Shown piece after piece: positions 1,630-40,562 of a stretch of 64,000 nucleotides of DNA. How positions within the stretch are numbered: position 1 is the stretch's first letter; each line of letters starts with the position of its first letter. This DNA comes from Elusimicrobia bacterium GWA2_56_46. GTDB lineage: Bacteria; Elusimicrobiota; Elusimicrobia; Elusimicrobiales; UBA9959. The stretch spans positions 1-64,000 of the forward strand of contig MGTT01000026.1 in the NCBI GenBank assembly GCA_001799575.1, written 5' to 3'. The notes under the pieces were generated by a model. It saw nothing but the letters and a program-made list of their open reading frames with translations, ran no database searches and was not told where the DNA came from. The position numbers and the translations under genes are program-made.

Positions 1630-1701
1630 TCAGGAGAAAGCGGAATTTATAATGTCTCCGCAGGATGTTCGGCAAAGTAGTGTCGAACTTTAAACCTGAA
1701 G

Positions 1702-1835
1702 CTCCGAAGATTTTCACTTGTTAAAAATTCTGCCGAAAAATTATTATTTTTTGCGCGCGCAGAATTAAAATTAAGCAGGAATTCCCAAGGTTTTTTGAAT
1801 TCAACCGAAAGCCTTCTCCTGCCCCTACGGAAGTT
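1702..1835 (-). repeat. Left copy of a 134-bp inverted repeat (recombinase 3'-end fragment)
   Basis: Read on the minus strand this matches 3389-3522 at 132 of 134 positions; the two mismatches are adjacent, near the recombinase-proximal end. In the right copy the same bases encode the C-terminal part of the serine recombinase, so the left copy is a detached, inverted gene fragment. Its distal end stops at the bases that form the 3' end of tRNA-Ser in the right copy. The two copies would be substrates for inversion of the segment between them. Confidence 0.93.
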
Positions 1836-1894
1836 GCAGGGCTGGCGCCCTGCGGAAACGTGGCCGTTTCCCGAACCAATCTTCTTCCTCAAGC

Positions 1895-2009
1895 GCCGCC
1901 AGTAAGGCCGTCTTCGTTTTGCTAAACCAAGCCGGCCTTACGCGCGGCGGAGAATTGATAGTAGGCCCTTTCTGCCGGTTTCGCTTTGCTAAGCCAAACC
2001 GGCAGAAAG
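1895..2009 (+). other. Two tandem hairpins in the recombinase leader
   Basis: Hairpin one spans about 1895-1950: GTAAGGCCG pairs with CGGCCTTAC, and a CCGCC/GGCGG extension is offset by a bulge. Hairpin two is a perfect 14-bp stem, 1968-1981 with 1996-2009, ending 20 bases before the recombinase ATG. The two loops are near-copies (both read CG.TTTGCTAA.CCAA), so one hairpin probably arose by duplication of the other. They could be recombinase binding sites or an attenuator. Neither has a T-tract. Confidence 0.6.
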
Positions 2010-2029
2010 CGCAAGGTAACGGAGGGCTT

Positions 2030-22835: not shown

Positions 22836-22925
22836 AAAGGCTAAAGGTTTAAGGATGAGGGAAAAAATGCGGAAAGCATGAGGTTTTTTTCCGCCCTTTA
22901 GCCTTTATCCCTCATCCTTCGTCCT
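22836..22925. repeat. 7-nt-phased AAAGGCT tract with inverted half
   Basis: The left part reads AAAGGCT-AAAGGTT-TAAGGAT-GAGGGA. The right part (22892-22925) reads as CCTTTAG-CCTTTAT-CCCTCAT-CCTTCGT on the + strand. The two can pair through AAGGATGAGGG/CCCTCATCCTT, and T8 lies between them. It sits at the 3' end of the minus-strand gene 22926-23348 and may terminate it. Confidence 0.7.
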
Positions 22926-23348
22926 TTACTTTGCGGGAGTGTCTATTGTGATCACGGCTTTTTTGCCGAAGACGAAGAGAGGGCTCTTTAGGGAACCCAT
23001 CAAATCTCCATGCCTGAACACGCCAAGTTTGCCGTGATTATTAACGAAAGCTTCCAGGTAGATTTTCTTGGTGAGGACGTCCGGGAGTATGAGGTTGGAG
23101 GGCGTCATCTGGAAATTTACGGGGAAAACCGGATTAATGATCTTTTTTACCGCCACGGGCACTCCACCCTCGTTTCTAGCCACCAGAAAAAGCATCGTGT
23201 TGGGCCTGGCCGCGCGGTCGGCAAGTTCGGAAGTTATCTCCGCAGTGCCTTTGACGAGGAAGAAAGTCCTGAGGGCAAGAGGATAGAGCAAATAAGCTGA
23301 CAGTACGAAAAAACCGAGGAAAAAAAGCAGAAAAAGCGTTTTCTTCAT
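22926..23348 (-). CDS. Membrane-anchored protein resembling the CycH/CcmI C-terminal domain
   Basis: A 140-aa protein. Residues about 4-26 are a transmembrane anchor (LFLLFFLGFFVLSAYLLYPL). The rest reads like the C-terminal periplasmic domain of cytochrome c biogenesis protein CcmI/CycH: LFLVARNEGGVPVAVKKI, then a beta-strand with a 'P...NLILPD' element and a final GDLMGS. The TPR part of CcmI is missing and no ccm gene is nearby, so a role in cytochrome maturation is not implied. It is a single gene on the minus strand. Confidence 0.6.
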   Translation of the reverse strand: MKKTLFLLFFLGFFVLSAYLLYPLALRTFFLVKGTAEITSELADRAARPNTMLFLVARNEGGVPVAVKKIINPVFPVNFQMTPSNLILPDVLTKKIYLEAFVNNHGKLGVFRHGDLMGSLKSPLFVFGKKAVITIDTPAK

Positions 23349-24530: not shown

Positions 24531-24559
24531 TTGACTGCCGGGGGTTTGTGTATTACACT
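24531..24559 (+). promoter_or_regulatory. Sigma70-type promoter of the coiled-coil operon
   Basis: TTGACT (24531-24536), a 17-base spacer and TACACT (24554-24559) form a good vegetative promoter. Transcription would start near 24566, about 70 bases before the ATG. Confidence 0.7.
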
Positions 24560-24634: not shown

Positions 24635-27600
24635 ATGGCAAACGAATACAATGAACTTGAGCAGCTGGTGAACGACGTCACTAATATCGACACGGCCAGA
24701 ATGACTCTCCGCTGGGCGCTGGAGCGCCTGAACGCCATAGAAAAAGAAAAAGCCGAATTGAAAAAAAACCTCGACATCACCGAGGGAACCAGGAAAGGAC
24801 TGGAAATCAAAGTCCAGTCGCTTGAGGATACGTTCAAAAGCCGCGGGAAGAGCCTGGAGGAAAAAGAAAGTTTCTACGCCAAGCTTGAAGCCACCATGGC
24901 CCTGCTCGGCGACGGCAAACTTGATATCCAGCAGCTGCTCAAAAAAGAAGCCCGGCTCGACCACCTGCGCCTGGAGCTTGAGAACGAATACCAGGACAAA
25001 TTCGAGGAACTGGATAAAAACCAGAATTCGGTCATAGAAAGGTGGAATCAGCGTCTGCTGGACGTGGAGGGGCAGTACGCCAAGAGGCTGTCGGAAGCGC
25101 AGGCGCGTTATGACGCGCTGCGGCAGGAACTGGAAGCCGATTACCAGTCCCGCCTCGGCACGCTGGACACGTCCTACCAGCGCAAGGAAAAAGAGCTTAC
25201 GGAGCGGATAAAAACCCTGGAGATTTCGGTGAAAGCCGGCGAGGCCGGGCTGGAGGGCCGCCGCAAAGAGCTGGAAACCGATTTTTTAGGCAAAAAGAAC
25301 GAAATAGAAGCCAATTACCTCAAATTGAAAAGCCTCCTGGAGAGCGGCTTTCAGGAGCGCATCCGTTCCGCGGAAAACGATCATTGCGCCCAGGTCAAGT
25401 CGCTTGAGCGGACCTGGAACGCGGAGCGCGAACGCCTTATGGCCGAGCAGCACGCGCGCGACGAGCAGTTTAAAAAATCCCAGGAGGAGATGGCCAGGCT
25501 GGAAGGGCAGCTCTCCGCGCAGCAGGAGCGCCACCATTCGGAACTAATAGACATTATAAGCAGGAAAGAAGAGGCTTTCAGGGCCAAAGTGGAAGACCTG
25601 GAAAAGGAAAAAGCGGCCTACGAATCGGCCGTGGAGAAACTGAGGCTTCAGCTTGAAGCCAAGGAAAAGGACTGGCTGACCCAGAAAGAACAGGTGTATG
25701 CCGAATTCGCCCAGCGCTGCTCCGATATGGATGCTTCCGTCAGAGAGCGCACTGCCGCGCTCGAAAGAGATTACTCGGGCCGCAAAGACGAGCTGGAAAG
25801 CATTATTTCAGCCGCCAAGGAAAAATTTGAAAAAGACGCGTCCGCGCGCGTGGAAGTGGAACGCCGGGCCATGGAAGAGGAGAAAGCAAGGCTGGTTGAG
25901 GACGGCCGGCTCAAGGACTCGGCCCTCGGCCGCGCCGACGCTTCGATCAAAGAACTGGAAAAAACGTTCTCGGCCTCCAGGGAAGAGCATCACAGGGAGT
26001 TGATGGCGAAGATCCGCGTCAATGAAGAGGCTTTCAGGGCCAAGCTGGCCGAATTCGAGGCTGAAAAGGAAGAGTATAAGACCGTAATAGCCCGGCTGGT
26101 GGGGGAGGCCGGGGCCAAAGACGGCGTTTTTATAGAGGAAAAAAAGCGCCTGCAGAACGAATTTAACGAGAAGTACGCTTCTCTTGAGGCGGAACTCTCG
26201 GCCAGGGACGCGAAAGCGGGCGAAACAGAGGAGACTTATGAGGCCCGGTTGTCGGCTTTGGGCGACTCTTTCAAGGAAAAAGAGAAAGCCTGGGTGCTGG
26301 AAAGGGAAAGGCTGACCAACGAACTTACGGTTATTTCAAATGACGCCCAGGCGCTGGCCGCCGAGCGGGTGGAAAAGATCAAGGCGGCTTACGAAACCAG
26401 AAAGGCCGAGTTGGAAACGCAATTTGAGGAGAAACTGGCCTCGGCTTCCGCCGCGCTGGAATTTGAAAAAGAGCGGATCAACGGGGAACTGGCCGCTGTC
26501 AGGACGGAACTCGGTGAAATGGCCGCACGCGCCAAAGAGCTGGGGGATGAGCTTTCCGCGGACCGCCGCGCGCATCACGAGGAACTGATGGCGAAGCTGG
26601 CGGACAAAGAGGCGGCGCTGAAGGCGCAGGCCGGAAGTTTTGATAAAGAGCTGGCGCTGAAAGACGAGGCGGCCGGGAAGCAGGCCCGTGAGTTCGCCGC
26701 CAGGGAGAAGCAATGGGCCGGAGAGAAAGAGGCGCTTAGCGCCGATTTCGCGGCAAGATTCCAGCTGCTGGAAAAAGGTCTTGCGGAGAGGGAAAGCGCG
26801 CTGGAGCTCCAGTACCGGGTGAAGACCGGGGAAATGGAGAAGAACGCGGCGGAAGTGCGCTCGCTGCTTGAAACCGATTTTAAACAAAAGTTAGCCGTTG
26901 AGAAACGGGCTTTTGAAGACGCTAAAGCGAGTTTGATCGAAGAAAACAGGCTTAAGGAGGAGCGGCTTTCCGAGACCCGCGCGCTGGCGGCCGAGCGTGT
27001 GGAAAAGATAAAGTCGGCGTACGAGTCGCGCAAAGCGGAGCTTGAAAAACAGTACGAGGATAAACTGGCTTCCGCTTCCGCCGCGCTGGCTTTTGAAAAG
27101 GCGCGCCTGGTGGCGGATCTTAAGACCGCGAGCGACGAACATACCAGGCTTACCGAAGAGTTTAAAGAACTTGAGAGGACCATCGCGTCGGACCGCCGCG
27201 CGCATCACGCGGAACTTATGGAGAAGCTGGCGGACAAAGAGGCGGCGCTGAAAGCGCAGGCCGGGAATTTCGTTAAAGAGCTGGCGCTGAAAGACGAGGC
27301 GGCCGGGAAGCAGGCCCATGAATTCGCCGCCAGGGAGAAGCAGTGGTCCAAAGAGAAACAGGAATTGAGCGCCGATTTCGCGGCAAGGTTCCAACTGCTG
27401 GAAAAAGGCCTTGCGGAAAGGGAAAGCGCGCTGGAGCTTCAGTACCGGGTGAAAGCCGGGGAAATGGACAAGAACGCGGCGGAAGTGCGCTCGCTGCTGG
27501 AAGCGGATTTCAGGCAGAGGCTGGACGTAGAGAAACAGGCCTTTGAAGACGCGAAGGCGAGCCTGATCGAAGAAAACAGGCTTAAGGAACGGCAGCTTTC

Positions 27601-30600
27601 CGAGACGCGCGCGCTGGCCGCCGAGCGTGTGGAAAAGATAAAGTCGGCATATGAGTCGCGCAAAGCGGAGATTGAGAAGCAATTTGACGACAAGCTGGCT
27701 TCCGCGTCGGCCGCGCTGGCTTTTGAAAAAGCGCGCATGGTGGCGGATCTTAAGACCGCGAGCGTGGAATACACCAAGCTCAGCGGACAGTTTAAGGAGC
27801 TTGAGGAGACTATCGCGTCCGACCGCCGGGCGCATCACGCCGAACTGATGGCGAAGCTGGCGGAAAAAGAGGACGCGCTGAAAGCGCAGGCCGACGGCTT
27901 TACCAAAGAACTGAATAAACAAAGAAGCGATTTCAACGCGAGGGAAGCGGCTTTGTCGCGCGAAAAGGAAGCAGCTTTAAAGACGCAGTCCGACACCGCC
28001 GGCGGGGAAATTCTCAAGCTGCGCGATCGTCTCAGCTCCCAGGCCGCCGCGTGGGCCATGGAAAGGGAGAAGATGCAGGCCGCTATGGCGGAGGCCGCGG
28101 CCCGCGCTGAGCGGGAGACAAAGGAGCGCGTGTCCCGCCTGGCTTCGGACTATGAGGCCAAAAAAGCCGAGCTGACGCGGATCCTGAACGAGCGTCTGGC
28201 GGAGAAGGAAACGGTGCTGCGCCTTGAGACGGCCAAGGTGATAGAGGAGAGCCGGTTGAAGGATGCGCAGCTGTCTGCGACGCATGAGCGGGTGAAAGAG
28301 CTTGAGAACAAAGTCAATGCGATGAGCGGAACGCATCACGAGGAACTGATGGCGCGTCTGGCCGAGAAAGAAGAGGCGCTGAAAGTCCAGGCGGATGAAT
28401 TGAACCGCGAGAAGGCCTCGGCGCTGGAGGCGCAGGCCGCTGATTTTGACAAGGAACTGGATAAGCTGCGCGAGAGCTCGGGCGTCAGGGAAAGCGCGCT
28501 GGCGGATAAAAACGAAAAACTGGGTCTGGCGCTGAAAGAAGCCGCCGCCCGTGCGGAGCGCGAGATCGCCGAGACCGCCGCCAGGCTGAAAGCGGTTTAT
28601 GAAAGCAGAAAGACGGAGCTTGAAAAGCAGTATGAAGAGAAGCTGGCTTCCGCGACCGCCGCGCTGGCCTTTGAAAAAGCGCGGATGGTCTCGGATCTTA
28701 AGACCGCGAGCGTGGAATATACCAAGCTCAGCGAACAGTTTAAGGATCTTGAGGGGACTATCGCGTCCGACCGTCGGGCGCATCACGCGGAACTGATGGC
28801 GAAGCTGGCGGACAAAGAGTCGGCGCTGAAAACTCAGGCCGGGAATTTCAATAAGGAACTGGCCGGTCTTCGCGACGCTTTCGGTGTTCAGGCCGCGGCG
28901 TGGGCGGCTGAGAAAGAAAAGCTTAATTCGATGATGGCGGAGACGTCTGCCCGCGCCGAGCGCGAGATAAAAGAGCGTGCGATGCGCACGGCGGCGGAGT
29001 ACGAGAACAAGAAAGCGGAGCTGGAGCGGATCCTGAACGAGCGCCTGGCGATGAGCGGGGAACATCACGAAGAGCTGATGGCGCGCCTGGCGGAGAAGGA
29101 AGCGGCGCTGAAAGCGCAGGCTGATGAACTGAACCGCGAGAAAGCGTCCGCCCTGCAGATACAGGCCGGCGCCTTTGAGAAAGAGCTGGCGGCGCGCGAG
29201 TCTGCGCTGAACAAGCAGGCGCAGGAACTGTCCGCTAAAGAGAAATACTGGTCAGGCGAGAAAGAAGCGCTGGCCGCCGATTTCGCGGCGCGGTTCCAGT
29301 TGTTCGCCAGGGATATGGCTGAAAGGGAAAAAGCGCTTGAGCTCCAGTACCGCGCTAAAGAGGCGGAGGTGAACAGGACCGCGGCGCAGGCGCGCGCGCA
29401 GGCCGAGATGAACTTCGCGGAGCGTCTGGCCGCTGAGAAGGATAATTTTGAAAAAGCGAAAGCGCGTCAAGCGGAGGAAGCGGGTCTTAAAGACGCGCAG
29501 TTGTCGGCCACGCATAACAAGCTCAAAGAGCTTGAAAAGCGGATGGGCGAGCTGAAAGACGTTCATCATGCCGAAGCGATGGCGCGTCAGGCCGAGAAGG
29601 AAGCGGCGCTGAAAGCGCAGGCTGAGAATTTCGGCAAAGAGCTGGCCGGTATGCAGGAGTCGTTCAAAGCGAAGCTGGCCGCTCTGGCCCGTGAGCAGGA
29701 AGAGGCGCTGAAAGCGCAGGCCGGTAATTCCAGCAGCGAGATCCTTAAGCTGCGCGAGCGTCTTAACGCCCAGGCCTCGGCGTGGACAGCTGAGAAAGAA
29801 AAGCTTAATTCGATGATGGCGGAGACGTCTGTCCGCGCCGAGCGCGAGATAAAAGAGCGTGCGATGCGCACGGCGGCGGAGTACGAGAACAAGAAAGCGG
29901 AGCTGGAGCGGATCCTGAACGAGCGCCTGGCGGAGAAAGAGTCGGTGCTACGCCTTGAGACGGCCAAAGTGATGGAAGAAAGCCGTCTGAAAGACGGTCA
30001 GTTGTCCGCGACGCATGAGCGGGTGAAAGAGCTTGAGAACAAAGTCAACGCGATGAGCGGGGAACATCACGAAGAGCTGATGGCGCGCCTGGCGGAGAAG
30101 GAAGCGGCGCTGAAAGCGCAGGCTGATGAACTGAACCGCGAGAAAGCGTCCGCCCTGCAGATACAGGCCGGCGCCTTTGAGAAAGAGCTGGCGGCGCGCG
30201 AGTCTGCGCTGAACAAGCAGGCGCAGGAACTGTCCGCTAAAGAGAAATACTGGTCAGGCGAGAAAGAAGCGCTGGCCGCCGATTTCGCGGCGCGGTTCCA
30301 GTTGTTCGCCAGGGATATGGCTGAAAGGGAAAAAGCGCTTGAGCTCCAGTACCGCGCTAAAGAGGCGGAGGTGAACAGGACCGCGGCGCAGGCGCGCGCG
30401 CAGGCCGAGATGAACTTCGCGGAGCGTCTGGCCGCTGAGAAGGATAATTTTGAAAAAGCGAAAGCGCGTCAAGCGGAGGAAGCGGGTCTTAAAGACGCGC
30501 AGTTGTCGGCCACGCATAACAAGCTCAAAGAGCTTGAAAAGCGGATGGGCGAGCTGAAAGACGTTCATCATGCCGAAGCGATGGCGCGTCAGGCCGAGAA

Positions 30601-33508
30601 GGAAGCGGCGCTGAAAGCGCAGGCTGAGAATTTCGGCAAAGAGCTGGCCGGTATGCAGGAGTCGTTCAAAGCGAAGCTGGCCGCTCTGGCCCGTGAGCAG
30701 GAAGAGGCGCTGAAAGCGCAGATTGATCGGTTGAACAGTGAAAAGGCGGCCGCGCTGGAAGCGCAGGCCGGCGGCTTCAATAAGGAATTAGCCGATCTGC
30801 GCGCCGGCTCCGGCGCCAGGGAAAACGCGCTGGCTCATGAGAACGGCAAGCTGGTGCTGGCGTTGAAAGAAGCCGTTTCCCGCGCGGAGCGCGAGATCGC
30901 TGAGAACGCCGCCAGGCTGAAAGCGGTTTATGAAAACAGGAAAGCGGAGCTTGAAAAGCAGTACGAGGACAAGCTGGCTTCCGCGTCCGCCGCGCTGGCC
31001 TTTGAAAAGGCGCGGATGATCTCGGATCTTAAGACCGCGAGCGTGGAATACACCAAGCTCAGCGAGCAGTTTAAGGAGCTTGAGAAGACTATCGCGTCCG
31101 ACCGCAGGGCGCATCACGCCGAACTGATGGCGAAGCTGGCGGATAAAGAGGCCGCGCTGAAAGCGCAGGCGGAGAATTCCGGCAAGGAGCTGGCCGGCCT
31201 GAGGGAATCGTTCAAAGCGAAGCTGGCCGCCCTGGCCCGTGAGCAGGAAGAGGCGCTGAAAGCGCAGGCCGGTAATTCCAACGGCGAGATCCTTAAACTG
31301 CGCGAGCGTCTTAACGCCGGTGAAGCGGCGTGGGGCGCCGAAAAAGAAAAATTGAATTCCGCTCTGTCGGAGACGTCGGCCCGGGCGGAGCGGGAGATAA
31401 AAGAGCGGGCGGCGCGCATTTCCGCCGAGTACGAGAATAAGAAAGCCGAGCTGGAGCGTATCCTGAACGAGCGTCTGGCTGAGAAAGAGTCGGTGCTGCG
31501 CCTTGAGACGGCCAAAGTGATGGAAGAAAGCCGTCTGAAAGACGCCCAGCTGGCGGAGACGCACGAGCGGGTGAAAGAGCTTGAAAATAAAGTCAACGCG
31601 ATGAGCGGCGCGCACCATAAGGAACTGATGGCTCGGCTGGCTGAGAAGGAAGCCGTGCTGAAAGCCCAGGTTGAGAATTCCAACGCGGAATTGAACAAGG
31701 CGCGCGAGGCGTTCAACGAGAAACTTGACTCCCTGAACCGGGAAAAGGCCGCCGCTCTGAAAGCGCAGACCGAAACTTTCGAGAAGGAACTGGCGGTGAA
31801 AGAGGCGGCGTTCCGCAAGCAGGCGCAGGAGCTGGCGACGCGGGAGAAATACTGGGCCGGCGAAAAGGAGGCCCTCAACTCCGATTCCGCCGCGCGGTTC
31901 CAGCTGTTCGCCAAGGAGACGGCGGACAGAGAGAGCGCGATGGAAAATCACTACAGGCTCAGGGAAGCGGAGCTTGCCAGGAACGCGGCGCAGGCGCGCG
32001 AACGTCTGGAAACGGACTTTGTCCGGAGGCAGGCCGCGGAAAGGGACGCTTTCGCGAAAGAGAGAGCCCGGCTGACGGAAGAGAACCTCTTCAAGGACGG
32101 GCGGGTCTCCGAGGCGCAGGAAAAATTAAAAGCCATGGAGACGCGCCTGGAGGAACTTAAGACCGCTCACCAGGCCGAACTGTCGGCGAAAGCCGCGGCT
32201 CTTGAAGCCGATTACGCCGCGCGGCGGGAAGCGCTTGACGCGGAACTGGCCGCCAAGGAAGAGGCCCTCAACAGGGAAACCGCGGCCCGCATGGAATTCG
32301 AACGGACCACCTGGCAGGCGCAGAGCGGGCGGCTTGAGACCATGCTCTCCAGAACCGGCGAGGACTTTAAGAACGCCCAAAAGGAGATCGAAGCGCTGTC
32401 GGCTTCGGTTTCCTCCAGGGAAGAGGAGATAAGCCGGCTGAAAGCGGAGCTGTCCGAACAGGCCCGGCAGGCCGCCGAGGCCCTGAGGCACGCCGAAAGC
32501 GGGGCGCTGGCCGGGAAAGCGGCCGCGCTGGATGCCGCTTACAGGGAGCGCAAAAAACGCCTCGAAGCCGAGACGGACGCCCTGAGGGAAAATCTTGAAA
32601 AAGATTACAAGAACAGCTGCGAAGCCATGGAGAAGAACTACGGGATCAAGAATCGCCAGACCGCCGTTGAAAATGAAGAGCTGAGAAGAACCATGGAAAA
32701 AATGCGCGAAGAACTGGCTGCGGCGCAGAGTACGGCGGGCGGCTACCTTAATGAAATGATGGAGAAAGTCCACGCTCATAAGGCGGAAATGCTCAAACTC
32801 AAAGAAGAGCATGCGGCGGAACTGAACTCCATAATATCCGAGGCGGTGGCGCGGGCGGTCTCGCCGCTCCAGGAAAGGGTCCGGCTCGCGGAGAGCGGGA
32901 TGCTTGAGCTTCAGCGGAACAACAGGGAAGAGCTGCTGGTGATGGAAGAAACGTTCCGGAAAGAGAAAGAAAGGCTTATGGAAGAACTGGGCCGCAGGCA
33001 AAGTTACATAGAGGCCGCGGACTTAAAGGCGCAGGAAATGCAGAACGAACTTATGAACAGCCGCCAGGATTCCGCGGCGGTTTTCCTGGGGCAGATGGCC
33101 GGGCAGGAAGACAAGTTCAAAGCCCTTATAAAAAGTTACGAGATCCGGCAGGAAAAGCTTGAAAAAGAATCCGCCGGCCGCCTGGAAGCGGTCAGAAGCG
33201 AGTACGCGGACAGGATAAGGGATCTGGAAGAGACGCTGAAAGCCAAGGAAAATCTGGTGCGCCAGGGAGGGGAATTCTGGCGCCAGAAGCAATCGGAACT
33301 GGACGCCCAGCATGCCGCCCTCAATATGAAGATCCACAGCTTCAACGAGGAGCTGTTCGCCCAGAAACAGGAACTTTCCGGACGGGAGAACTCCCTTAAC
33401 GCGCAGCGGCTGGCGCTTGAAAAGGAGCACGCCGCCCGGATGGCCGAGATAGAGAAGCTGAAAGTGGAGCTTAGCAAGGCCATCGTGGAGTACAAGAACA
33501 GGAAATGA
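24635..33508 (+). CDS. Giant (2957-aa) repetitive coiled-coil protein
   Basis: No known family recognised. There is no signal peptide or membrane helix, so it is probably cytoplasmic. After a short N-terminal segment (about 1-60; ARMTLRWALERLNAIEKEKA), the chain is almost unbroken Glu/Lys/Ala/Leu/Gln coiled coil. I noticed only one Pro, near residue 2744. Thirteen or so copies of an HHxELMxxLxxKExALKxQ module recur through residues about 300-2330. Larger modules (ALAAERVEKIKSAYESRKAE, FAAREKQW..., FAARFQLL) repeat around them, and a 672-bp DNA segment is perfectly duplicated. The last ~600 residues are non-repetitive coiled coil ending EYKNRK. A filament, spacer or scaffold role is inferred. 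It is followed after 4 bases by a second coiled-coil gene. Confidence 0.9.
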   Translation: MANEYNELEQLVNDVTNIDTARMTLRWALERLNAIEKEKAELKKNLDITEGTRKGLEIKVQSLEDTFKSRGKSLEEKESFYAKLEATMALLGDGKLDIQQLLKKEARLDHLRLELENEYQDKFEELDKNQNSVIERWNQRLLDVEGQYAKRLSEAQARYDALRQELEADYQSRLGTLDTSYQRKEKELTERIKTLEISVKAGEAGLEGRRKELETDFLGKKNEIEANYLKLKSLLESGFQERIRSAENDHCAQVKSLERTWNAERERLMAEQHARDEQFKKSQEEMARLEGQLSAQQERHHSELIDIISRKEEAFRAKVEDLEKEKAAYESAVEKLRLQLEAKEKDWLTQKEQVYAEFAQRCSDMDASVRERTAALERDYSGRKDELESIISAAKEKFEKDASARVEVERRAMEEEKARLVEDGRLKDSALGRADASIKELEKTFSASREEHHRELMAKIRVNEEAFRAKLAEFEAEKEEYKTVIARLVGEAGAKDGVFIEEKKRLQNEFNEKYASLEAELSARDAKAGETEETYEARLSALGDSFKEKEKAWVLERERLTNELTVISNDAQALAAERVEKIKAAYETRKAELETQFEEKLASASAALEFEKERINGELAAVRTELGEMAARAKELGDELSADRRAHHEELMAKLADKEAALKAQAGSFDKELALKDEAAGKQAREFAAREKQWAGEKEALSADFAARFQLLEKGLAERESALELQYRVKTGEMEKNAAEVRSLLETDFKQKLAVEKRAFEDAKASLIEENRLKEERLSETRALAAERVEKIKSAYESRKAELEKQYEDKLASASAALAFEKARLVADLKTASDEHTRLTEEFKELERTIASDRRAHHAELMEKLADKEAALKAQAGNFVKELALKDEAAGKQAHEFAAREKQWSKEKQELSADFAARFQLLEKGLAERESALELQYRVKAGEMDKNAAEVRSLLEADFRQRLDVEKQAFEDAKASLIEENRLKERQLSETRALAAERVEKIKSAYESRKAEIEKQFDDKLASASAALAFEKARMVADLKTASVEYTKLSGQFKELEETIASDRRAHHAELMAKLAEKEDALKAQADGFTKELNKQRSDFNAREAALSREKEAALKTQSDTAGGEILKLRDRLSSQAAAWAMEREKMQAAMAEAAARAERETKERVSRLASDYEAKKAELTRILNERLAEKETVLRLETAKVIEESRLKDAQLSATHERVKELENKVNAMSGTHHEELMARLAEKEEALKVQADELNREKASALEAQAADFDKELDKLRESSGVRESALADKNEKLGLALKEAAARAEREIAETAARLKAVYESRKTELEKQYEEKLASATAALAFEKARMVSDLKTASVEYTKLSEQFKDLEGTIASDRRAHHAELMAKLADKESALKTQAGNFNKELAGLRDAFGVQAAAWAAEKEKLNSMMAETSARAEREIKERAMRTAAEYENKKAELERILNERLAMSGEHHEELMARLAEKEAALKAQADELNREKASALQIQAGAFEKELAARESALNKQAQELSAKEKYWSGEKEALAADFAARFQLFARDMAEREKALELQYRAKEAEVNRTAAQARAQAEMNFAERLAAEKDNFEKAKARQAEEAGLKDAQLSATHNKLKELEKRMGELKDVHHAEAMARQAEKEAALKAQAENFGKELAGMQESFKAKLAALAREQEEALKAQAGNSSSEILKLRERLNAQASAWTAEKEKLNSMMAETSVRAEREIKERAMRTAAEYENKKAELERILNERLAEKESVLRLETAKVMEESRLKDGQLSATHERVKELENKVNAMSGEHHEELMARLAEKEAALKAQADELNREKASALQIQAGAFEKELAARESALNKQAQELSAKEKYWSGEKEALAADFAARFQLFARDMAEREKALELQYRAKEAEVNRTAAQARAQAEMNFAERLAAEKDNFEKAKARQAEEAGLKDAQLSATHNKLKELEKRMGELKDVHHAEAMARQAEKEAALKAQAENFGKELAGMQESFKAKLAALAREQEEALKAQIDRLNSEKAAALEAQAGGFNKELADLRAGSGARENALAHENGKLVLALKEAVSRAEREIAENAARLKAVYENRKAELEKQYEDKLASASAALAFEKARMISDLKTASVEYTKLSEQFKELEKTIASDRRAHHAELMAKLADKEAALKAQAENSGKELAGLRESFKAKLAALAREQEEALKAQAGNSNGEILKLRERLNAGEAAWGAEKEKLNSALSETSARAEREIKERAARISAEYENKKAELERILNERLAEKESVLRLETAKVMEESRLKDAQLAETHERVKELENKVNAMSGAHHKELMARLAEKEAVLKAQVENSNAELNKAREAFNEKLDSLNREKAAALKAQTETFEKELAVKEAAFRKQAQELATREKYWAGEKEALNSDSAARFQLFAKETADRESAMENHYRLREAELARNAAQARERLETDFVRRQAAERDAFAKERARLTEENLFKDGRVSEAQEKLKAMETRLEELKTAHQAELSAKAAALEADYAARREALDAELAAKEEALNRETAARMEFERTTWQAQSGRLETMLSRTGEDFKNAQKEIEALSASVSSREEEISRLKAELSEQARQAAEALRHAESGALAGKAAALDAAYRERKKRLEAETDALRENLEKDYKNSCEAMEKNYGIKNRQTAVENEELRRTMEKMREELAAAQSTAGGYLNEMMEKVHAHKAEMLKLKEEHAAELNSIISEAVARAVSPLQERVRLAESGMLELQRNNREELLVMEETFRKEKERLMEELGRRQSYIEAADLKAQEMQNELMNSRQDSAAVFLGQMAGQEDKFKALIKSYEIRQEKLEKESAGRLEAVRSEYADRIRDLEETLKAKENLVRQGGEFWRQKQSELDAQHAALNMKIHSFNEELFAQKQELSGRENSLNAQRLALEKEHAARMAEIEKLKVELSKAIVEYKNRK
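29048..29719 (+). repeat. 672-bp perfect direct repeat, copy 1
   Basis: Identical base for base to 30050-30721 as far as I can read, at a 1002-bp offset, which keeps the reading frame. It encodes residues about 1472-1695 of the coiled-coil protein. The preceding ~150 bases are also a near-copy of 29785-29938. Confidence 0.92.
30050..30721 (+). repeat. 672-bp perfect direct repeat, copy 2
   Basis: Second copy of 29048-29719. Absence of substitutions points to a recent duplication or gene conversion, or to ongoing length variation by recombination. Short-read assembly across it could be wrong. Confidence 0.92.
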
Positions 33509-33512
33509 TAAT

Positions 33513-34277
33513 ATGAACAAAGAAAGGCTCATACAATGCGTGCCGATAGAGCTTATGGATCGTCTTAAGAACCTTCTCGCCCGCCTCTGGGACGATAAGA
33601 ATCCGGCGGCCGTGCATCTGGGGGCCATCATGGACGAGTTCGAAACGGACGTGAAATCCCTCAGCGGGGTGGTCGCGGAATACGAGACCGACTGCGCCGT
33701 CCGGCTTAAACTGGCGGAAGAGGAATACAGGGAAAAGGCGCGGGCGTTCGAGAACGACCGGGCCGAATACAAGGCGCGCATGTCCGGGCTGGACAAGGCC
33801 TGCGGAGAAAATACCGGGAAAGTGGCGGAGCTCAACGGGATTCTTAAGAGCAAGGAAGCGGAACTTGAGGCTTTCAGGGCGCAGTTCGCCGAAAAGGAAT
33901 TGCAGCTCAACTCAAAATACGTGAACAAAATGTCGGAGCTGTATGACAAGGTGAGCCGTAAGGAGATGGAAATCCTCTCCCGGTGGGAGGAAAAAAACAA
34001 GGCGATGGAGGCGAAATACGGCGCCCTTGAGGCGGAGCACGCGGAGAAGGCCCGCCAGATAAAACTGCGGGAAAAAGCGCTGGAAGAAGAGTTCAATGCC
34101 AGGAAAGAGGAACTTGTAAAGGCTTTTGACAGGGTAAGGCTCGACCTTGAAGCCAGGGAGACGGCGCTCTCCGGCAGGGAAAAAAATCTCGCCGCTTTGG
34201 ACAAAGCGCTTTCCGCCAGGGAGGAGAAACTGGCCGCGCTGGAGAAGAAAAGACGCACGGTCACGGACGATCTATGA
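33513..34277 (+). CDS. Coiled-coil protein, second gene of the operon
   Basis: A 254-aa protein, no signal peptide. The first ~60 residues are a folded-looking helical segment (IQCVPIELMDRLKNLLARLW). Residues about 60-250 are coiled coil with the same Glu/Lys/Ala style as the giant upstream protein (AEKELQLNSKY, REKALEEEFNARKEELVK). It begins 4 bases after the giant gene and overlaps the next gene as ATGA, so all three are expressed together. It may be a capping or adaptor partner of the giant protein. No family was recognised. Confidence 0.75.
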   Translation: MNKERLIQCVPIELMDRLKNLLARLWDDKNPAAVHLGAIMDEFETDVKSLSGVVAEYETDCAVRLKLAEEEYREKARAFENDRAEYKARMSGLDKACGENTGKVAELNGILKSKEAELEAFRAQFAEKELQLNSKYVNKMSELYDKVSRKEMEILSRWEEKNKAMEAKYGALEAEHAEKARQIKLREKALEEEFNARKEELVKAFDRVRLDLEARETALSGREKNLAALDKALSAREEKLAALEKKRRTVTDDL

Positions 34278-34903
34278 GTAAAGAAAACGAGCTTAAAAAT
34301 CTCCTTGACCGCCTGAAAGGAGAGATCCGCTTTCCGGCCGCGGCCGCCGCTCCCAAGCCGGAATCTTTCCGTGAAGTTATAGCGCCGGCGCCGCCGGAAT
34401 TTTCCGGGGCTCCCGCGCCGGGCCCGCGCGCGCCGCGGCCGGAAAAATCCCCGTCTCCGGTGCGGCCGGAATTTCAGCGGGGAGGGGAAAGGATTTCGGC
34501 GCCGGCGGGCGCCAATATCGTCTGGAGCGAGAATAAGGAGGCGCTGCTGTTCGGAGTGCTGGCTTCGCTTGTCGCCATACTCGGCGGTATGCTGGCCGGG
34601 CTTGATTACGTCATACTCATAGGCTCCGTTTCTTTCATGCTTTTTTCTTTCATAATGGTACTGACGCTGTTCGGTTATTATCTGAACTTCGGTAAGAAAA
34701 ATTCGGAAGAGGGGCTTCTGGGAGAGCGGGTTGACCGGCTTTCCAGGAGGCTGGAGGCTATCGCGGGGAGGGGGCCGGTAAATCAGCCGCAGGGAGAGCC
34801 GGGCGCGCGGGTCAGGGACAGGGAAATGGAGCAAAAAGTGGATGAATTGAGGACGCTCGTTAAGTCGCTTGCCAGGGCGCTGGAAGAGAAGGATAAAGGC
34901 TAA
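34274..34903 (+). CDS. Membrane protein with Pro-rich linker, third gene of the coiled-coil operon
   Basis: A 209-aa protein. The N-terminal ~20 residues form an amphipathic helix (ENELKNLLDRLKGEI). Residues about 25-85 are Pro/Ala-rich and disordered. Two transmembrane helices lie at about 96-118 and 120-143 (LFGVLASLVAILGGMLAG, VSFMLFSFIMVLTLFGYYL). The C-terminal ~60 residues are a short coiled coil. The layout suggests an inner-membrane anchor for the two cytoplasmic coiled-coil partners. The last codons (encoding KDKG) run into a 7-nt-phased repeat tract. No family was recognised. Confidence 0.75.
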   Translation: MSKENELKNLLDRLKGEIRFPAAAAAPKPESFREVIAPAPPEFSGAPAPGPRAPRPEKSPSPVRPEFQRGGERISAPAGANIVWSENKEALLFGVLASLVAILGGMLAGLDYVILIGSVSFMLFSFIMVLTLFGYYLNFGKKNSEEGLLGERVDRLSRRLEAIAGRGPVNQPQGEPGARVRDREMEQKVDELRTLVKSLARALEEKDKG

Positions 34904-34990
34904 AGGATAAAGGCCAAAGGGCGAAAAAGCTTTTACATATTTTCTATGTTTTCCCTTAATCCTTTAGCCTTAAGCCTTTATCCTTTGTAA
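34890..34990. repeat. 7-nt-phased GATAAAG/GCTAAAG tract with inverted half
   Basis: The left part (34890-34923) includes the last codons of the membrane-protein gene: GATAAAG-GCTAAAG-GATAAAG-GCCAAAG. The right part (34953-34987) is its approximate reverse complement (CCTTTAG-CCTTAAG-CCTTTAT-CC). Together they form a long imperfect hairpin that probably ends the coiled-coil operon. Confidence 0.8.
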
Positions 34991-35044: not shown

Positions 35045-35728
35045 ATGAAAATGAAATCGGCGGCGGCGGCTTTTATCCTTTTCCTTAACTCTTTTCCGGT
35101 AGTTATTTTTGCCCAGCTGATTCCGGGCGAAAAGGACTATTTCATCGAAGCGGGGGACGTGCTCAACGTGGAAGTTTTTCCGGCGGGGGAATTCTCCAAG
35201 GAAGTCACCGTTCAGCCCGACGGTACTATAGATATGCCGCTGGTGGGCCCGATCAAAGTGGGGGGCGCGCGGAGCGCAGACCTTGAAAAGACCCTGACCG
35301 CCCGGTTTTCCAAATACGTGGCCAATCCGCGTATAACCATCAATGTCCGTAAATTCTCGGCCAACAGAATAGCGATCATCGGGGAGATCCGCTCCGGCGG
35401 CTATTTCGAATACCGGGAAGGCATGAAGCTTCTGGATCTGGTGGCGCAGGCGGGCGGCCTGGGCGATTACCCCAGGGCCGGCCAGGTCAGGATCTACAGG
35501 CGCGTCAAAGGCGCGGACGGCAGGACAAAAGAGGAAGTGATAAAAGCGGACGTTTCCGCCGTCATGGCCGGACACATGGATAAGAATTTCGCCCTGGCCG
35601 CCGGCGATATAGTCTATGTTCCGAGAAAAAGAGTTTATAAGGCCGCCAAATGGATAAGCGACAACTTCGTTCCCTGGGCCACGTTGGGCACTTTTGCGAT
35701 TACTATCGGCCTCGTCACAAGAAAATAA
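35045..35728 (+). CDS. Polysaccharide export protein (Wza/SLBB family)
   Basis: A 227-aa periplasmic or outer-membrane exporter component. The signal peptide (about 1-23) ends VIFAQ; no lipobox is seen. A Poly_export domain (about 30-110; GDVLNVEVFPAGEFSKEVTV, DGTIDMPLVGPIKVGG) is followed by an SLBB domain (IAIIGEIRSGGYFEYREGMKLLD). The last ~25 residues (WATLGTFAITIGLV) are hydrophobic and could be the helix that lines the outer-membrane pore of Wza. A TATAAT at 35031-35036 ends only 8 bases before the ATG, and no ribosome site is visible, so the mRNA may be nearly leaderless. It heads the polysaccharide locus. Confidence 0.9.
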   Translation: MKMKSAAAAFILFLNSFPVVIFAQLIPGEKDYFIEAGDVLNVEVFPAGEFSKEVTVQPDGTIDMPLVGPIKVGGARSADLEKTLTARFSKYVANPRITINVRKFSANRIAIIGEIRSGGYFEYREGMKLLDLVAQAGGLGDYPRAGQVRIYRRVKGADGRTKEEVIKADVSAVMAGHMDKNFALAAGDIVYVPRKRVYKAAKWISDNFVPWATLGTFAITIGLVTRK

Positions 35729-35729
35729 G

Positions 35730-37610
35730 ATGAATGCGGAACTCACCCTTTACGACTATTGGCGCATCGTCAACCGGCGTAAATGGATCGCCCTGCTTGT
35801 TTTCAGCCTGACGGTATTCTCCACCATCTTTTACACCCGCCTCCAGCCGGTAATTTACCGCAGCCAGGCCATCATCAAATTCCAGCCCCCGGCCGCCTAC
35901 GCCAAGATCCCCGGCTCGGATCTTACGGAATTCGACCCCTGGAACGCCGTAGCCACGGAAATCAGGGTCATCACTTCGGCCGAGATAGCAGACCGGGCGG
36001 CCAAAAAACTGGGCTGGCTGGATGAAAACGCCGCGCCGGCGCATAACAACAGTATCGTAAATTCGATCCTGGCCTCCTATAAGGCCGAGCGTCTGCAGGA
36101 CTCCAACCTCATAAATATTTCGGCAAGCAACTCCGACCCGCTGAAAGCCAGCGATATCGTCAACGCCGTAATAGAAGCCTACCGGGACTACGACCTGGAG
36201 CAGAAAAGCAAGCAGGGCCGTAAAACGCTTGAGGATATCGCCTCCAGAAAGGCCGAAGTTGAGGAAAATCTCCGCTCCCTTGAGCGTTCCAAACAGAACT
36301 TCATGGAGAAAAATCCGAAAACGGGCCTGGGCGCGGCTTTAGCCAATCAACTGGCGGATCTGGAGATCCGCAAGCGCCAGCTGCAGGATAAATACACGCC
36401 CAACCATCCCGAAGTCATAGAACTCAACCAGCGCATCCAGGTCGTGGAGGGGAAATTGGGCGAGATCCCGGCGCAGGAGCTGGATCTTGCCCGCATCAGC
36501 CGCGAACTGCGCATGCAGGAAGACCTGTATACCACGCTGAATAAACAGTACGAAGAGGCCAAGCTGGGCCTGTCGTCGGTGGTTTCGTTCGTGAGCATCG
36601 TAAACCCCGCCGTTCCCAGCGAGTCGCCCGTGTCGCCCAATAAGCAGCTCAATCTTCTGGTGGGCGGAATTTTGGGTTTTTTTCTGGCCATAGCGCTGGT
36701 ATTCCTGCTGGAAAACCTGGACGTTTCGATAAGCACCATTGAAGACATAGAATCGTTCCTGAAACTGCCGGTTTTAGGCATCATTCCCCATATCATGAGC
36801 GAAAAATACCTGGATAACTGGCTCATCCAGATCTTCAAAAAAGAGCGTTACACGGTGGACGCTTTCAGGAGCGTGCTTATTCTTAACCGGCGGTACGCTT
36901 CCGGAGTGATAGAGGCTTATCATACGCTGCGGACGAATATAATCTCCAATTTGAATACGCGCGAGAGTATTTCGGTGGTTTTCAGCTCCGCCGGCGCGGC
37001 CGAAGGCAAAACCCTTACCGCCGTCAATTTCGCCCTTGCCAGCGCGCATTCCGGACTTAAGACGCTTTTGATAGACGCCGATATGCGCCGCCCCACCATC
37101 TATCAGATCTTCGGTTCAAAAAGGAACCCCGGTTTCAGCGACGTGCTGACCGGCAAAGCGCAGTGGCGGGACACGGTGCTTGAGAGCGCGGATTTTATGA
37201 TGGGCGGGCTTGATTTTGACAGCCTGACGCGCTTCCAGGGCATAGAGAACCTTAAGATCCTGAACTCCGGCACCCCGCCCGGCGGCATCATCGATATAAT
37301 AGACTCCTGCAACTGGAAAGATCTGGTGGCGGATCTGAAAAGCGAATTCGACGTCATCGTATTCGACACTCCGCCGGTTCTTTTGTTCGTAGATCCCATA
37401 ATGCTGGCCAGGCACTCGGACGGAGTGGTACTGGTCTACAAAGCCGGCAAGATAGCGAGAGGCGGGCTTAAGCGGGCGAAAGATCAGATAGTGGGGGGCA
37501 ACGCACGTATGATCGGCGTACTGCTGAACGGCATTCACGCGTCGGAAATGGGGCCTCAGTACGGTTATTACTCCTATTCCGACGACTACACCAAATATTC
37601 CAGGCGCTAA
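35730..37610 (+). CDS. Wzc-like polysaccharide co-polymerase and tyrosine autokinase
   Basis: A 626-aa inner-membrane protein. The Wzz domain (about 8-100, first helix WIALLVFSLTVFSTIFYT) is followed by a periplasmic coiled coil (about 150-290) and a second transmembrane helix near 315-335. The cytoplasmic BY-kinase domain has Walker A SSAGAAEGKTLTA near residue 418 and Walker A' TLLIDADMRRP. The C-terminus is a Tyr cluster (YGYYSYSDDYTKY), the usual autophosphorylation tail. It starts 1 base after the exporter gene. It would control chain length and export with the Wza-like protein. Confidence 0.93.
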   Translation: MNAELTLYDYWRIVNRRKWIALLVFSLTVFSTIFYTRLQPVIYRSQAIIKFQPPAAYAKIPGSDLTEFDPWNAVATEIRVITSAEIADRAAKKLGWLDENAAPAHNNSIVNSILASYKAERLQDSNLINISASNSDPLKASDIVNAVIEAYRDYDLEQKSKQGRKTLEDIASRKAEVEENLRSLERSKQNFMEKNPKTGLGAALANQLADLEIRKRQLQDKYTPNHPEVIELNQRIQVVEGKLGEIPAQELDLARISRELRMQEDLYTTLNKQYEEAKLGLSSVVSFVSIVNPAVPSESPVSPNKQLNLLVGGILGFFLAIALVFLLENLDVSISTIEDIESFLKLPVLGIIPHIMSEKYLDNWLIQIFKKERYTVDAFRSVLILNRRYASGVIEAYHTLRTNIISNLNTRESISVVFSSAGAAEGKTLTAVNFALASAHSGLKTLLIDADMRRPTIYQIFGSKRNPGFSDVLTGKAQWRDTVLESADFMMGGLDFDSLTRFQGIENLKILNSGTPPGGIIDIIDSCNWKDLVADLKSEFDVIVFDTPPVLLFVDPIMLARHSDGVVLVYKAGKIARGGLKRAKDQIVGGNARMIGVLLNGIHASEMGPQYGYYSYSDDYTKYSRR

Positions 37611-37611
37611 C

Positions 37612-39009
37612 ATGCCTATCCTCCCGCTTATTCTCGCCGCCGCCGCCGCGATAGCGGCCGGCTTCCTGGCCGTTACGGCGCAGCCCGAGTACCTGCTGCT
37701 TTTCACCGGCGGGCTGCTGGTGTCCGTTTTCGCTTTCGCGTCGCCCAAACTCAGTCTGGTTCTGCTTATTTTCTCCATGCTGCTTTCGCCCGAAATGAGT
37801 TTAGGGGGCGTGTCCGCCTCCAGGAGCGCGGTTCTGCGTTATGACGATATTCTGCTGGTCATTGTCTTCTTTTCGTGGCTGGCGCGGGCCGCCGTATTGA
37901 AAAACAAGCCTTTCCTTACCGAGACCCCGGTTCAGACCCCGATGCTTATTTATACGCTGCTCGCGGTGGCCTCCACCGCTCTGGGCGTATTAAGGGGAGA
38001 GGTGCGTTTTGAGGTCTCGGTGTTCTATGTCCTGAAGTACGTGGAATATTTCCTGCTTTATTTTATGACGGTCAATATCCTGGATTCACGGGAGGAGATG
38101 AAAAAGTACCTGAAGTATGCCTTTGTGGTGGCCCTGCTGGTCACGGTTTACGCCTATTACTATTATTACAGTTCCGGATCCGACGCCAGGGCCAGCGCGC
38201 CGTTCGAGGCGGCGGTCGGCCGTCCCCAGGAATCGGAACCGGCGGCCCTGGGCGGCTATTATCTGCTGGTCTTCGGATTTATCCTGGCCGCGCTGACTGA
38301 ATATTCCGGCGCCGTATTCATCCTGGCGGCCGCCGTCATGATCTTCATGTTCCCGGCATTTCTGCTGACCTTTTCACGGGCGTCTTATATAGGGTTCGCG
38401 GCCATGGTTCCGGTCCTTGTGGCCATCTCCCGCAAAAGGAAACTCATGATGACCTCCTTTTTCGGCATAGGGCTGGCGGCGCTCTCGCTGGCGCCCGGCA
38501 TCGCGGGCAAGGTGCAGAACCGGATCATGATGACTTACACCGGGCAATACGCCACCAATATCGTGGACATCGGATCGGCCGGCCAGGTGAAGCTGGAAGA
38601 TTCCGCCGCGACCAGGGTGCGCGCGCTTAAGTGGGTGCTTTATGAGAAACTGCCGCAGCATCCGATACTCGGTTCCGGCGTCACGGGCATAGGCCTCGGC
38701 GACACGCAGTACGCCCTTGTATTGGGAGAGCTGGGGCTGGCCGGATTGTGCGTGTTTATCTGGATGATCTATCGCGTCTTTTCCACGGCGCGGAAAGTGT
38801 ACCGCGCTTACGAGGAGCCGTGGATAAAAGCCCTGAGCCTGGGCCTTATGGCGTCCATAACCGGGCTTTTATTCCAGGCGGTCGGGGTCAACACTTTTAT
38901 CCTGGTCAGGGTAATGGAACCGTTCTGGTTCCTGACCGCCCTGGTCATGGCGCTGTATAAAGACATCCCGGCGGCCGGAAAAGCGGAAGCGGCAGGCGCG
39001 GACATATAA
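37612..39009 (+). CDS. O-antigen ligase / polymerase family membrane protein
   Basis: A 465-aa polytopic membrane protein with about 11-12 hydrophobic helices. The Wzy_C-type signature includes FLLTFSRASYIGF followed, after a helix, by a large periplasmic loop containing ALKWVLYEKLPQHPILGSGV and GDTQYALVLGELGL. Such proteins polymerise repeat units (Wzy) or ligate polysaccharide to a carrier (WaaL), and sequence alone does not separate the two. It starts 1 base after the Wzc-like gene and 2 bases before the flippase gene. Confidence 0.87.
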   Translation: MPILPLILAAAAAIAAGFLAVTAQPEYLLLFTGGLLVSVFAFASPKLSLVLLIFSMLLSPEMSLGGVSASRSAVLRYDDILLVIVFFSWLARAAVLKNKPFLTETPVQTPMLIYTLLAVASTALGVLRGEVRFEVSVFYVLKYVEYFLLYFMTVNILDSREEMKKYLKYAFVVALLVTVYAYYYYYSSGSDARASAPFEAAVGRPQESEPAALGGYYLLVFGFILAALTEYSGAVFILAAAVMIFMFPAFLLTFSRASYIGFAAMVPVLVAISRKRKLMMTSFFGIGLAALSLAPGIAGKVQNRIMMTYTGQYATNIVDIGSAGQVKLEDSAATRVRALKWVLYEKLPQHPILGSGVTGIGLGDTQYALVLGELGLAGLCVFIWMIYRVFSTARKVYRAYEEPWIKALSLGLMASITGLLFQAVGVNTFILVRVMEPFWFLTALVMALYKDIPAAGKAEAAGADI

Positions 39010-39011
39010 GA

Positions 39012-40562
39012 ATGACGCAGAGCCTTTCACATAAAATAGTGAAAAATACGCTCTTTAACGCGATAGGGCGTTTTTGGGGCATCCTGGTCGCCGTTGTTCT
39101 GACGCCCTATATAATAAGCCGCATCGGTCTGGACAGATACGGTATCTGGACGCTCGTGGGGGTGGCTACCAGCTATTTCGGCCTGTTAGATCTCGGTATC
39201 GGAACCTCGTTCGTAAAGTATATTTCGGAATTCCACGCCAAAGGCGATCGGGAGAAAATAAACCGGCTCATTAATACCGGGGTTATCTTTTATTCGTTGT
39301 TCGCGGTTCTGCTTATCGGGCTGGGGGTGGGTTTTATCGAGCCCCTGCTCTCCATCCTCAAGATCCCGCGGCGGCTGCATGATGAGGCCGCTATAGTCTT
39401 TCTGATGGGGATCGTGCTGTTCGCGATGTCAAATATTGTAAGTGTTTTCGGCGCGATCCAGGGCGCTTTGCAGCGTATGGATATATCCAATAAGCTTTCG
39501 CTTGTCTTTTCGATCCCCGCCGTTATAGGCACGGTCTTGTTTTTGAAGTATGGCTTCGGACTGGTAGGGCTGATGGCCAATAACTTTATCGTGCTGATGC
39601 TGAGTTCCCTCGCCAATATCCTGATCGCTTTCAGGCTTTTTCCCGAACTAAAATTAAGCCCGTTTTTGTTCGATAAAGAGATGCTTCGCAGGCTGATCGG
39701 GTTCGGGTATAAGCTGCAACTTTCAAATATCACCAACATCTTCGCTTTTCAAAGCGATAAAGTGATAATCGCGTACTTTTTGAACGTGGAACTGGTAAGC
39801 TTGTACCAATTGGGCAAAACCGTCGTGGATAAAGCGAGGGAGTTGCCGCTTTTGCTGGTTTCCGCGATCGTGCCCGCCGCATCCGAGATCTCCGCGAACG
39901 GCGACGACAGGAAGCTGAGAGAGCTGTATACGCGCGGGATGAGGTATCTCGCGCTGACCGGCATCCCGCTGCTGGTGTTCGTTTTTTTTACGGCGCCGTT
40001 GATCATGTCCGCCTGGATCGGGCCCGGCTGCGACAAGGCGGTTCTGGTCATTCGGTTGTTAGTCCCGGCGTATATGGCCAATTACCTGACGGGAATGGGG
40101 AGCGCGATGGCGCTTGGGATGGGGAAGCCTCAGTTTCAACTGAAAGCTTCGCTGGTGAATTTGTTCGTGGGCCTTCCTTTGAGTATTTTGCTGGCCGTTA
40201 ATTTCGGTTTTACCGGCATTGTTTTCGCCACGTTCGTTTCTTTGTCCACCGGTTCGTTATATTTCCTGGTCTTGTTCCACAGGCATTTGAACTATTCCCT
40301 GGCGGAGCTTGTGAGAAAAGCGGTTGTCCGGCCCGCGGTCGTTTCCTCGCTTTTGGGCGCGGCGGTCTTTCTGACAAACGCCGCGCTGTTCGCCGGGCCG
40401 TCGGGCCGCATGGTTTATCTGGGCGTCCTTTCCGCGGAGGCTTTTGTTTTTTTCGCGGGTTACGCGGCCGCCTTAACGGCCGGAGGCTATCTGGACGCTT
40501 ACGATAAGGAGCTGATAAGGGAAAAGATAAGCGGCATTAAAAGAACGGCGTTTTCCGGTTGA
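39012..40562 (+). CDS. Wzx-type flippase / polysaccharide biosynthesis membrane protein
   Basis: A 516-aa protein of the MATE/MOP superfamily with about 14 transmembrane helices. The N-terminus (KNTLFNAIGRFWGILVAVVLTPYIISRIGLDRYG) is typical of Wzx and RfbX proteins. It would flip undecaprenyl-linked repeat units across the inner membrane. It follows the ligase/polymerase gene by 2 bases. A 48-base gap then separates it from the glycan-assembly genes. The middle of this gene looks somewhat lower in GC than its neighbours. Confidence 0.92.
   Translation: MTQSLSHKIVKNTLFNAIGRFWGILVAVVLTPYIISRIGLDRYGIWTLVGVATSYFGLLDLGIGTSFVKYISEFHAKGDREKINRLINTGVIFYSLFAVLLIGLGVGFIEPLLSILKIPRRLHDEAAIVFLMGIVLFAMSNIVSVFGAIQGALQRMDISNKLSLVFSIPAVIGTVLFLKYGFGLVGLMANNFIVLMLSSLANILIAFRLFPELKLSPFLFDKEMLRRLIGFGYKLQLSNITNIFAFQSDKVIIAYFLNVELVSLYQLGKTVVDKARELPLLLVSAIVPAASEISANGDDRKLRELYTRGMRYLALTGIPLLVFVFFTAPLIMSAWIGPGCDKAVLVIRLLVPAYMANYLTGMGSAMALGMGKPQFQLKASLVNLFVGLPLSILLAVNFGFTGIVFATFVSLSTGSLYFLVLFHRHLNYSLAELVRKAVVRPAVVSSLLGAAVFLTNAALFAGPSGRMVYLGVLSAEAFVFFAGYAAALTAGGYLDAYDKELIREKISGIKRTAFSG

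Follow-up and report, generated by a model that had tools for sequence, protein, structure and literature searches.

What task might a helical protein of 2957 residues serve in a bacterial cell when its gene is followed by those of two small partners and then by genes for polysaccharide export? This question is posed by a locus in an Elusimicrobiota MAG (2.66 Mb, 99% complete), located within a 64,000-nucleotide stretch of DNA that we refer to as the window. The evidence laid out below gives, in our assessment, an even chance to the reading that the three proteins, here termed A, B and C, would form a membrane-tethered cytoplasmic scaffold that positions a Wza-Wzc-Wzy/Wzx export machine.

Layout and transcription of the locus

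The operon and its upstream region comprise the following features:

24531-24559, + strand: sigma-70-type promoter (TTGACT-17-TACACT), a motif that recurs upstream of A
24635-33508, + strand: protein A, a predicted giant helical rod (2957 aa, one proline, period 3.62)
33513-34277, + strand: protein B, helical (254 aa)
34274-34903, + strand: protein C (209 aa)

The three open reading frames, the 4-nt spacing between A and B and the ATGA overlap between B and C are as the first-pass annotation had given them. With a codon-position GC of 0.66/0.38/0.72, the gene for A resembles its housekeeping neighbors, and A can thus be regarded as a real coding sequence. These 5' neighbors encode GlmU, Prs, the ribosomal protein L25 and peptidyl-tRNA hydrolase. 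Directly 5' of A, here and in many loci of the family f1, the opposite strand (22926-23348, minus strand) encodes a conserved protein of 140 aa that contains an Ig_CycH-like domain, and the left edge of the window carries a DDE transposase and a serine recombinase (82-3625).

A single promoter at 24531-24559 had been proposed to drive the operon. Five consensus promoter pairs are found in the window versus 1.9 expected by chance, and the -35/-10 pair at this position, taken alone, is not convincing. Upstream of A, the pattern TTGAnn-N16-18-TAnnnT is present at 24 of the 47 loci examined, versus a background of 2.7% per 200 nt, and the -10 element is near-identical across loci (TAAACT, TACACT, TAGACT). 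The promoter proposed for A is present and conserved.

Protein A is predicted to be a nearly straight helical rod

Neither Pfam nor PDB sequence searches matched A, B or C; the Foldseek search gave no usable match, NCBIfam yielded no match reaching its cut-off for any of the three, no homologue with a solved structure was found, and literature searches turned up nothing on the A-B-C operon. Two NCBIfam matches, that of B to an SMC model (23 bits versus a cut-off of 729) and that of A to a biotin-ligase model (far under the cut-off), were dismissed as low-complexity noise. Hence, the earlier statement that these proteins belong to no recognized family holds: strong homology to a characterized family, such as an adhesin or an SMC-like protein, was found by none of the Pfam, NCBIfam, PDB and Foldseek searches.

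As had been described, A is nearly proline-free (a single proline, at position 2744), with 3.0% glycine and 17.8% alanine. In a windowed Fourier analysis, its hydrophobic positions peak at a period of 3.62 residues with a power of 1.49 (shuffled maximum 0.27), and the signal at 3.50 is background, inside the shuffled range. A hydrophobic peak near 3.5 is expected of a heptad coiled coil, and the SMC protein encoded in the same genome (C28:73282) has a hydrophobic period of 3.51. A canonical heptad coiled coil is therefore ruled out for A, and its earlier description as a coiled coil does not hold in the usual heptad sense; the heptad feature of crescentin-type, intermediate-filament-like proteins, a hydrophobic period near 3.5, is likewise not found in A. 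An SMC-like function in chromosome or DNA handling, for which the weak match of B might be quoted, is refuted on defining features and can hardly be right, as A lacks a Walker A motif and departs in its period from the genuine SMC protein.

The period is 3.61-3.63 in the family homologues of A, 3.64 in those from the family f14 and 3.60-3.67 in the paralogues from the same genome; one A protein from the family f15 has merely a weak peak, at 3.75. An alpha-helix free of distortion has 3.63 residues per turn (PMC9858780). Since the period of A nearly equals this value, A should be a nearly unsupercoiled, straight helical rod. Its hydrophobic face is narrow, covering roughly 100 degrees, and alanine is enriched on the opposite side.

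A and B are both devoid of membrane-length hydrophobic stretches (maximum KD19 0.94 for A and 0.54 for B), and the N-terminus of A (MANEYNELEQ) is not a signal peptide. Together with the two membrane helices of C, these properties uphold the earlier view of A as an elongated cytoplasmic helical protein with a membrane-anchored partner. A large repetitive protein adjoining envelope genes could also be a secreted surface adhesin or an extracellular filament; this is highly improbable, as A has no signal peptide, surface anchor, membrane segment or Pfam match, and as its partner C is predicted to form a hairpin in the inner membrane, with positive charge following its second helix. Lipid-binding amphipathic helices have a periodicity close to that of A, which might accordingly coat lipid or storage granules in the manner of apolipoproteins or phasins. 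The growth pole ring protein GPR, discussed below, matches apolipoprotein Pfam models (PMC8262873). The narrow hydrophobic face, the lack of a match of A to PF01442 (apolipoprotein) and anchoring by a dedicated membrane protein make such a lipid coat improbable.

The ends of protein A are conserved and its length varies

Three segments of the gene for A deserve separate mention:

24635-25234, + strand: conserved N-terminal module of A (residues 1-200), from homologue conservation and a structure model
25986-31824, + strand: repeat region of A, with 13 copies of a 61-nt HHxEL-type unit
29048-29719, + strand: exact internal repeat of A (672 nt), with a second copy at 30050-30721, 1002 nt downstream

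Residues 1-200 are 50-84% identical to the window copy across the family, and D19, T20, A21, M23, L25, R26, W27, A28, L29 and E30 are invariant among the f1 proteins; the last approximately 60 residues are conserved as well. A monomer model of this N-terminal part predicts a short helix (2-13), a loop, a helix (18-92), a short break (93-97) that falls at a conserved G(D/E)GKL motif, and a further helix (98-199); with a pLDDT of 87 and a pTM of 0.33, the local helices are reliable and their arrangement is not.

Between the two ends, members of a single family differ widely in the length of A, which ranges from 729 to 2957 aa. The HHxEL-type units are spaced 153-630 nt apart, every spacing being a multiple of 3. 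The two copies of the 672-nt repeat show zero differences and either arose by a very recent duplication within the gene or reflect an assembly effect. Contig ends break the gene for A in the close relative G002, as repeats would cause.

The first-pass annotation had considered a cell-length ruler, and a rod that sets or senses cell length or envelope spacing has some appeal: an extended alpha-helix rises by 0.15 nm per residue, so that A would measure about 440 nm if it were one fully extended helix. In addition, its largest internal repeat offsets (334, 1093, 210, 167, 777 and 577 residues) stay near whole turns at 3.63, a helical phase that is suggestive only and partly a product of the amphipathic pattern itself. 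A fourfold variation in length within one family and an exact internal duplication are, however, what one would expect of a tolerant spacer, and we consider a ruler very unlikely.

Proteins B and C

Both ends of B are conserved, namely an N-terminal module (VPxELxxRLxxLxxxLWxxKNPAxVxLxAIxEEF) and a C-terminal part, and so are both ends of C. For C, an amphipathic helix (2-17), a disordered proline-rich linker (18-79), a membrane hairpin (approximately 86-137), which corresponds to two membrane-length hydrophobic stretches, and a C-terminal helix (177-208) are predicted. The proline-rich linker and the two membrane helices had been recognized before; the terminal segment, reported along with them as a coiled coil, is a predicted helix. 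As positive residues follow the second membrane helix, the C-terminus of C should be cytoplasmic, and from a two-helix hairpin we infer the same for the N-terminus; both ends of C are thus probably cytoplasmic.

In the family f9 and the genus g11, single chains (L166:3956-5173 and L182:3877-4962) begin with an N-terminal helix and a membrane hairpin like those of C and continue into a long helical tail resembling B, and B and C are therefore linked by fusion. In the family f11 (L168:6718-7086 and L170:6278-6946), a short Trp/Arg helix (VIKRWLLG, SAVKRWFTGR) forms the end of B or of the next gene and may take over membrane contact from C. A dispersed palindromic repeat (GGATAAAGGC..., inverted) lies at the end of C (34889-34985) and also at 22837-22926. 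It occurs in dozens of copies genome-wide (96 matching segments, with both arms and both strands counted), supplies the last codons of C and fills the gap between C and the following export gene, which is 141 nt here versus about 30 nt in most relatives.

Conservation of the operon and a class-wide N-terminal module

That the three genes stay together in relatives had been set beforehand as a check, and this is indeed the case: 28 loci of the family f1, one with 2.5 kb between C and Wza and one with an interrupted A frame among them, preserve the order A-B-C-Wza-Wzc, and A, B and C are mostly separated by short gaps or joined by 4-nt overlaps. Among the 61 nearest genomes, C is present in 24 and B in 26, and an N-terminal profile of A matches 115 of the 341 genomes of the phylum.

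A profile built from the first 66 residues of the N-terminal module (DTARMTLRWALERL) finds one to seven proteins each in 121 of 394 genomes (341 of the phylum and roughly 53 beyond it, the module outside the phylum being otherwise covered by a contig pattern scan). All 121 belong to the same class, family or genus, and no match occurs among the listed f2 genomes. As the matches are confined to one class, the module defines, at class level, a family of long helical proteins that are poor in proline.

The source genome encodes four such proteins: A, G000:C4:6116 (1038 aa), C4:9299 (900 aa) and C28:134691 (808 aa). The last of these, a helical protein encoded at L205:6692-9118, carries the motif VETARLALRWALDKI. 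The other two giant proline-free helical proteins form a second operon (G000:C4:6116-12001; L165, L185), situated 3' of two M16 peptidases and 5' of arginine decarboxylase and arginase genes; such a pair, or a single long protein, is found in several other genomes.

Link to polysaccharide export

Downstream of C, the following genes are encoded:

35045-35728, + strand: Wza-type polysaccharide export protein (Poly_export and SLBB domains)
35694-37610, + strand: Wzc (Wzz, GNVR and tyrosine-kinase-type ATPase, AAA_31)
37612-39009, + strand: Wzy-like protein (Wzy_C match slightly below the cut-off)
39012-40562, + strand: Wzx-like flippase

No terminator was found between C and Wza, and Wza is probably part of the same operon. 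The C-terminus of Wzc is rich in tyrosine (QYGYYSYSDDYTKYSRR). These neighbors carry the domains of a Wzx/Wzy locus, with Wzy_C slightly sub-cut-off, and sugar-modifying genes follow further downstream. A 980-aa protein in which an asparagine synthase is fused to a family 9 glycosyltransferase is encoded at 54313-57255, and a second Wzc homologue, with 34% identity, lies on the same contig (G000:C26:104118-105968).

The first-pass annotation had suggested that the three proteins position export machinery, and the underlying linkage recurs in three gene arrangements. Besides the order A-B-C-Wza-Wzc of the family f1, Wzc is followed by A in six of the six f14 genomes examined, with Wza also upstream in several of them, and the f14 Wzc proteins are only 22-27% identical to those of f1. 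In the family f15, C-Wza-Wzc stand beside A and a second A-type, module-bearing protein. Among 37 f1 genomes, 24 have both C and an f1-type Wzc (54% identity or more), one has Wzc alone (a fragment), none has C alone and 12 have neither; these counts are not independent evidence, because the genes are adjacent and one deletion removes both.

A few genomes keep A without the exporter. The genus g11 retains A but lacks C and f1-type Wzc, some members also encoding B or a B/C-like fusion; in the genome G014, A is kept without intact C and f1-type Wzc, and B and C are remnants. The A-B pairs of the family f11 are located among unrelated genes, not near Wza/Wzc. Hence, export is not the sole role of A. 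These cases favor the main rival to our reading, namely a general scaffold for cell shape or polarity, akin to GPR or Scy/FilP in its architecture (PMC8262873; PMC9858780), whose adjacency to Wza/Wzc would be mainly historical, with export as one client or none. No export genes were seen near the three other module proteins of the source genome, which fits such a general function. Three gene orders that hold A or C beside Wza/Wzc, the distant f14 Wzc clade included, and the near-absence of f1-type Wzc without C speak against it, and we judge this rival rather unlikely, but it is the one most deserving of attention.

If A, B and C serve export positioning, we infer the following arrangement. 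A would be a very long, straight rod of alpha-helix in the cytoplasm, probably assembled as a dimer or small bundle, with B as its short helical partner. Its ends would carry binding functions, and its middle would act as a spacer that is lengthened or shortened by in-frame duplication. Through its cytoplasmic N- and C-terminal helices, the hairpin protein C would hold the assembly of A and B at the inner membrane and serve as the adaptor to Wza/Wzc, and the scaffold as a whole would gather or position the Wza-Wzc-Wzy/Wzx machine. Of this account, the conservation of the genes, the conserved ends, the periodicity, the membrane hairpin and the recurrent linkage come from the sequences themselves; the oligomeric state, the direct contacts and the positioning role are deduced from them.

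Comparison with known systems

Two known scaffolds invite comparison. The growth pole ring protein GPR of Agrobacterium comprises 2115 aa, with two membrane helices and a helix of 1,700 aa (PMC8262873). Like GPR, A is a giant protein predicted to be mostly continuous helix with its bulk in the cytoplasm, and A-B-C would likewise have an envelope-related scaffold role. Each system has two membrane helices, but those of GPR reside in the same chain, whereas here they belong to the separate protein C, and the apolipoprotein match of GPR (PF01442) has no counterpart in A. Scy and FilP of Streptomyces are DivIVA-like and rich in hendecads (PMC9858780). Long, alanine-rich, non-heptad (hendecad-type) helices behind a short N-terminal helix-loop motif characterize Scy/FilP and are predicted for A, and the helix-loop-helix start of A (2-13 and 18-92 in the monomer model) may be set beside the DivIVA-like fold. 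Both also pair a large with a small helical protein; these interact in Scy/FilP and may do so in A and B. In contrast, none of 35 A-type proteins has the DivIVA-like pattern GY[DN]xx[QE]V[DN] within its first 80 residues, Pfam shows no DivIVA match even at E up to 5, and the source genome has no match to the Scy model NF041483 at E up to 1. We therefore regard A-B-C as working like GPR and Scy/FilP and not as a member of either group, since their defining sequence features are missing.

The coiled-coil proteins Mad20, Mad23, Mad25 and Mad26 of magnetosome chains resemble A-B-C, by their description, as a helical network that organizes a membrane structure in deep-branching bacteria (PMC12748827); A-B-C differs in adjoining polysaccharide genes. 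A magnetosome link was set aside because the Mad proteins of chain formation are reported to be missing from the magnetotactic members of the Elusimicrobiota (PMC12748827). The genes downstream of C are themselves members of the Wzx/Wzy-dependent export type (Poly_export, Wzz, GNVR, AAA_31). We know of no described Wzx/Wzy export system with a dedicated giant helical rod and adaptor in its operon. Collectively, A-B-C appears to be an intracellular scaffold not described before, which resembles known bacterial polarity scaffolds without sequence kinship to them.

Significance for the Elusimicrobiota

A broader proposal, which we put forward tentatively as a possibility, is that Elusimicrobiota have a cytoskeletal system of their own, with giant unsupercoiled rods that share an N-terminal docking module, occur several per cell and serve one client each, A placing the export machine via the adaptor C. 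The relevant families of the class appear here as metagenome assemblies only, and the cellular placement of polysaccharide export machines is poorly known. A scaffold and an adaptor encoded in the same operon offer direct test pairs, C with Wzc and A with B, and the A rods form a natural size series of one protein, from 729 to 2957 residues. If our reading is true, the class would possess a set of giant helical scaffolds of its own, marked by one signature, with one of them tied to surface-polysaccharide export.
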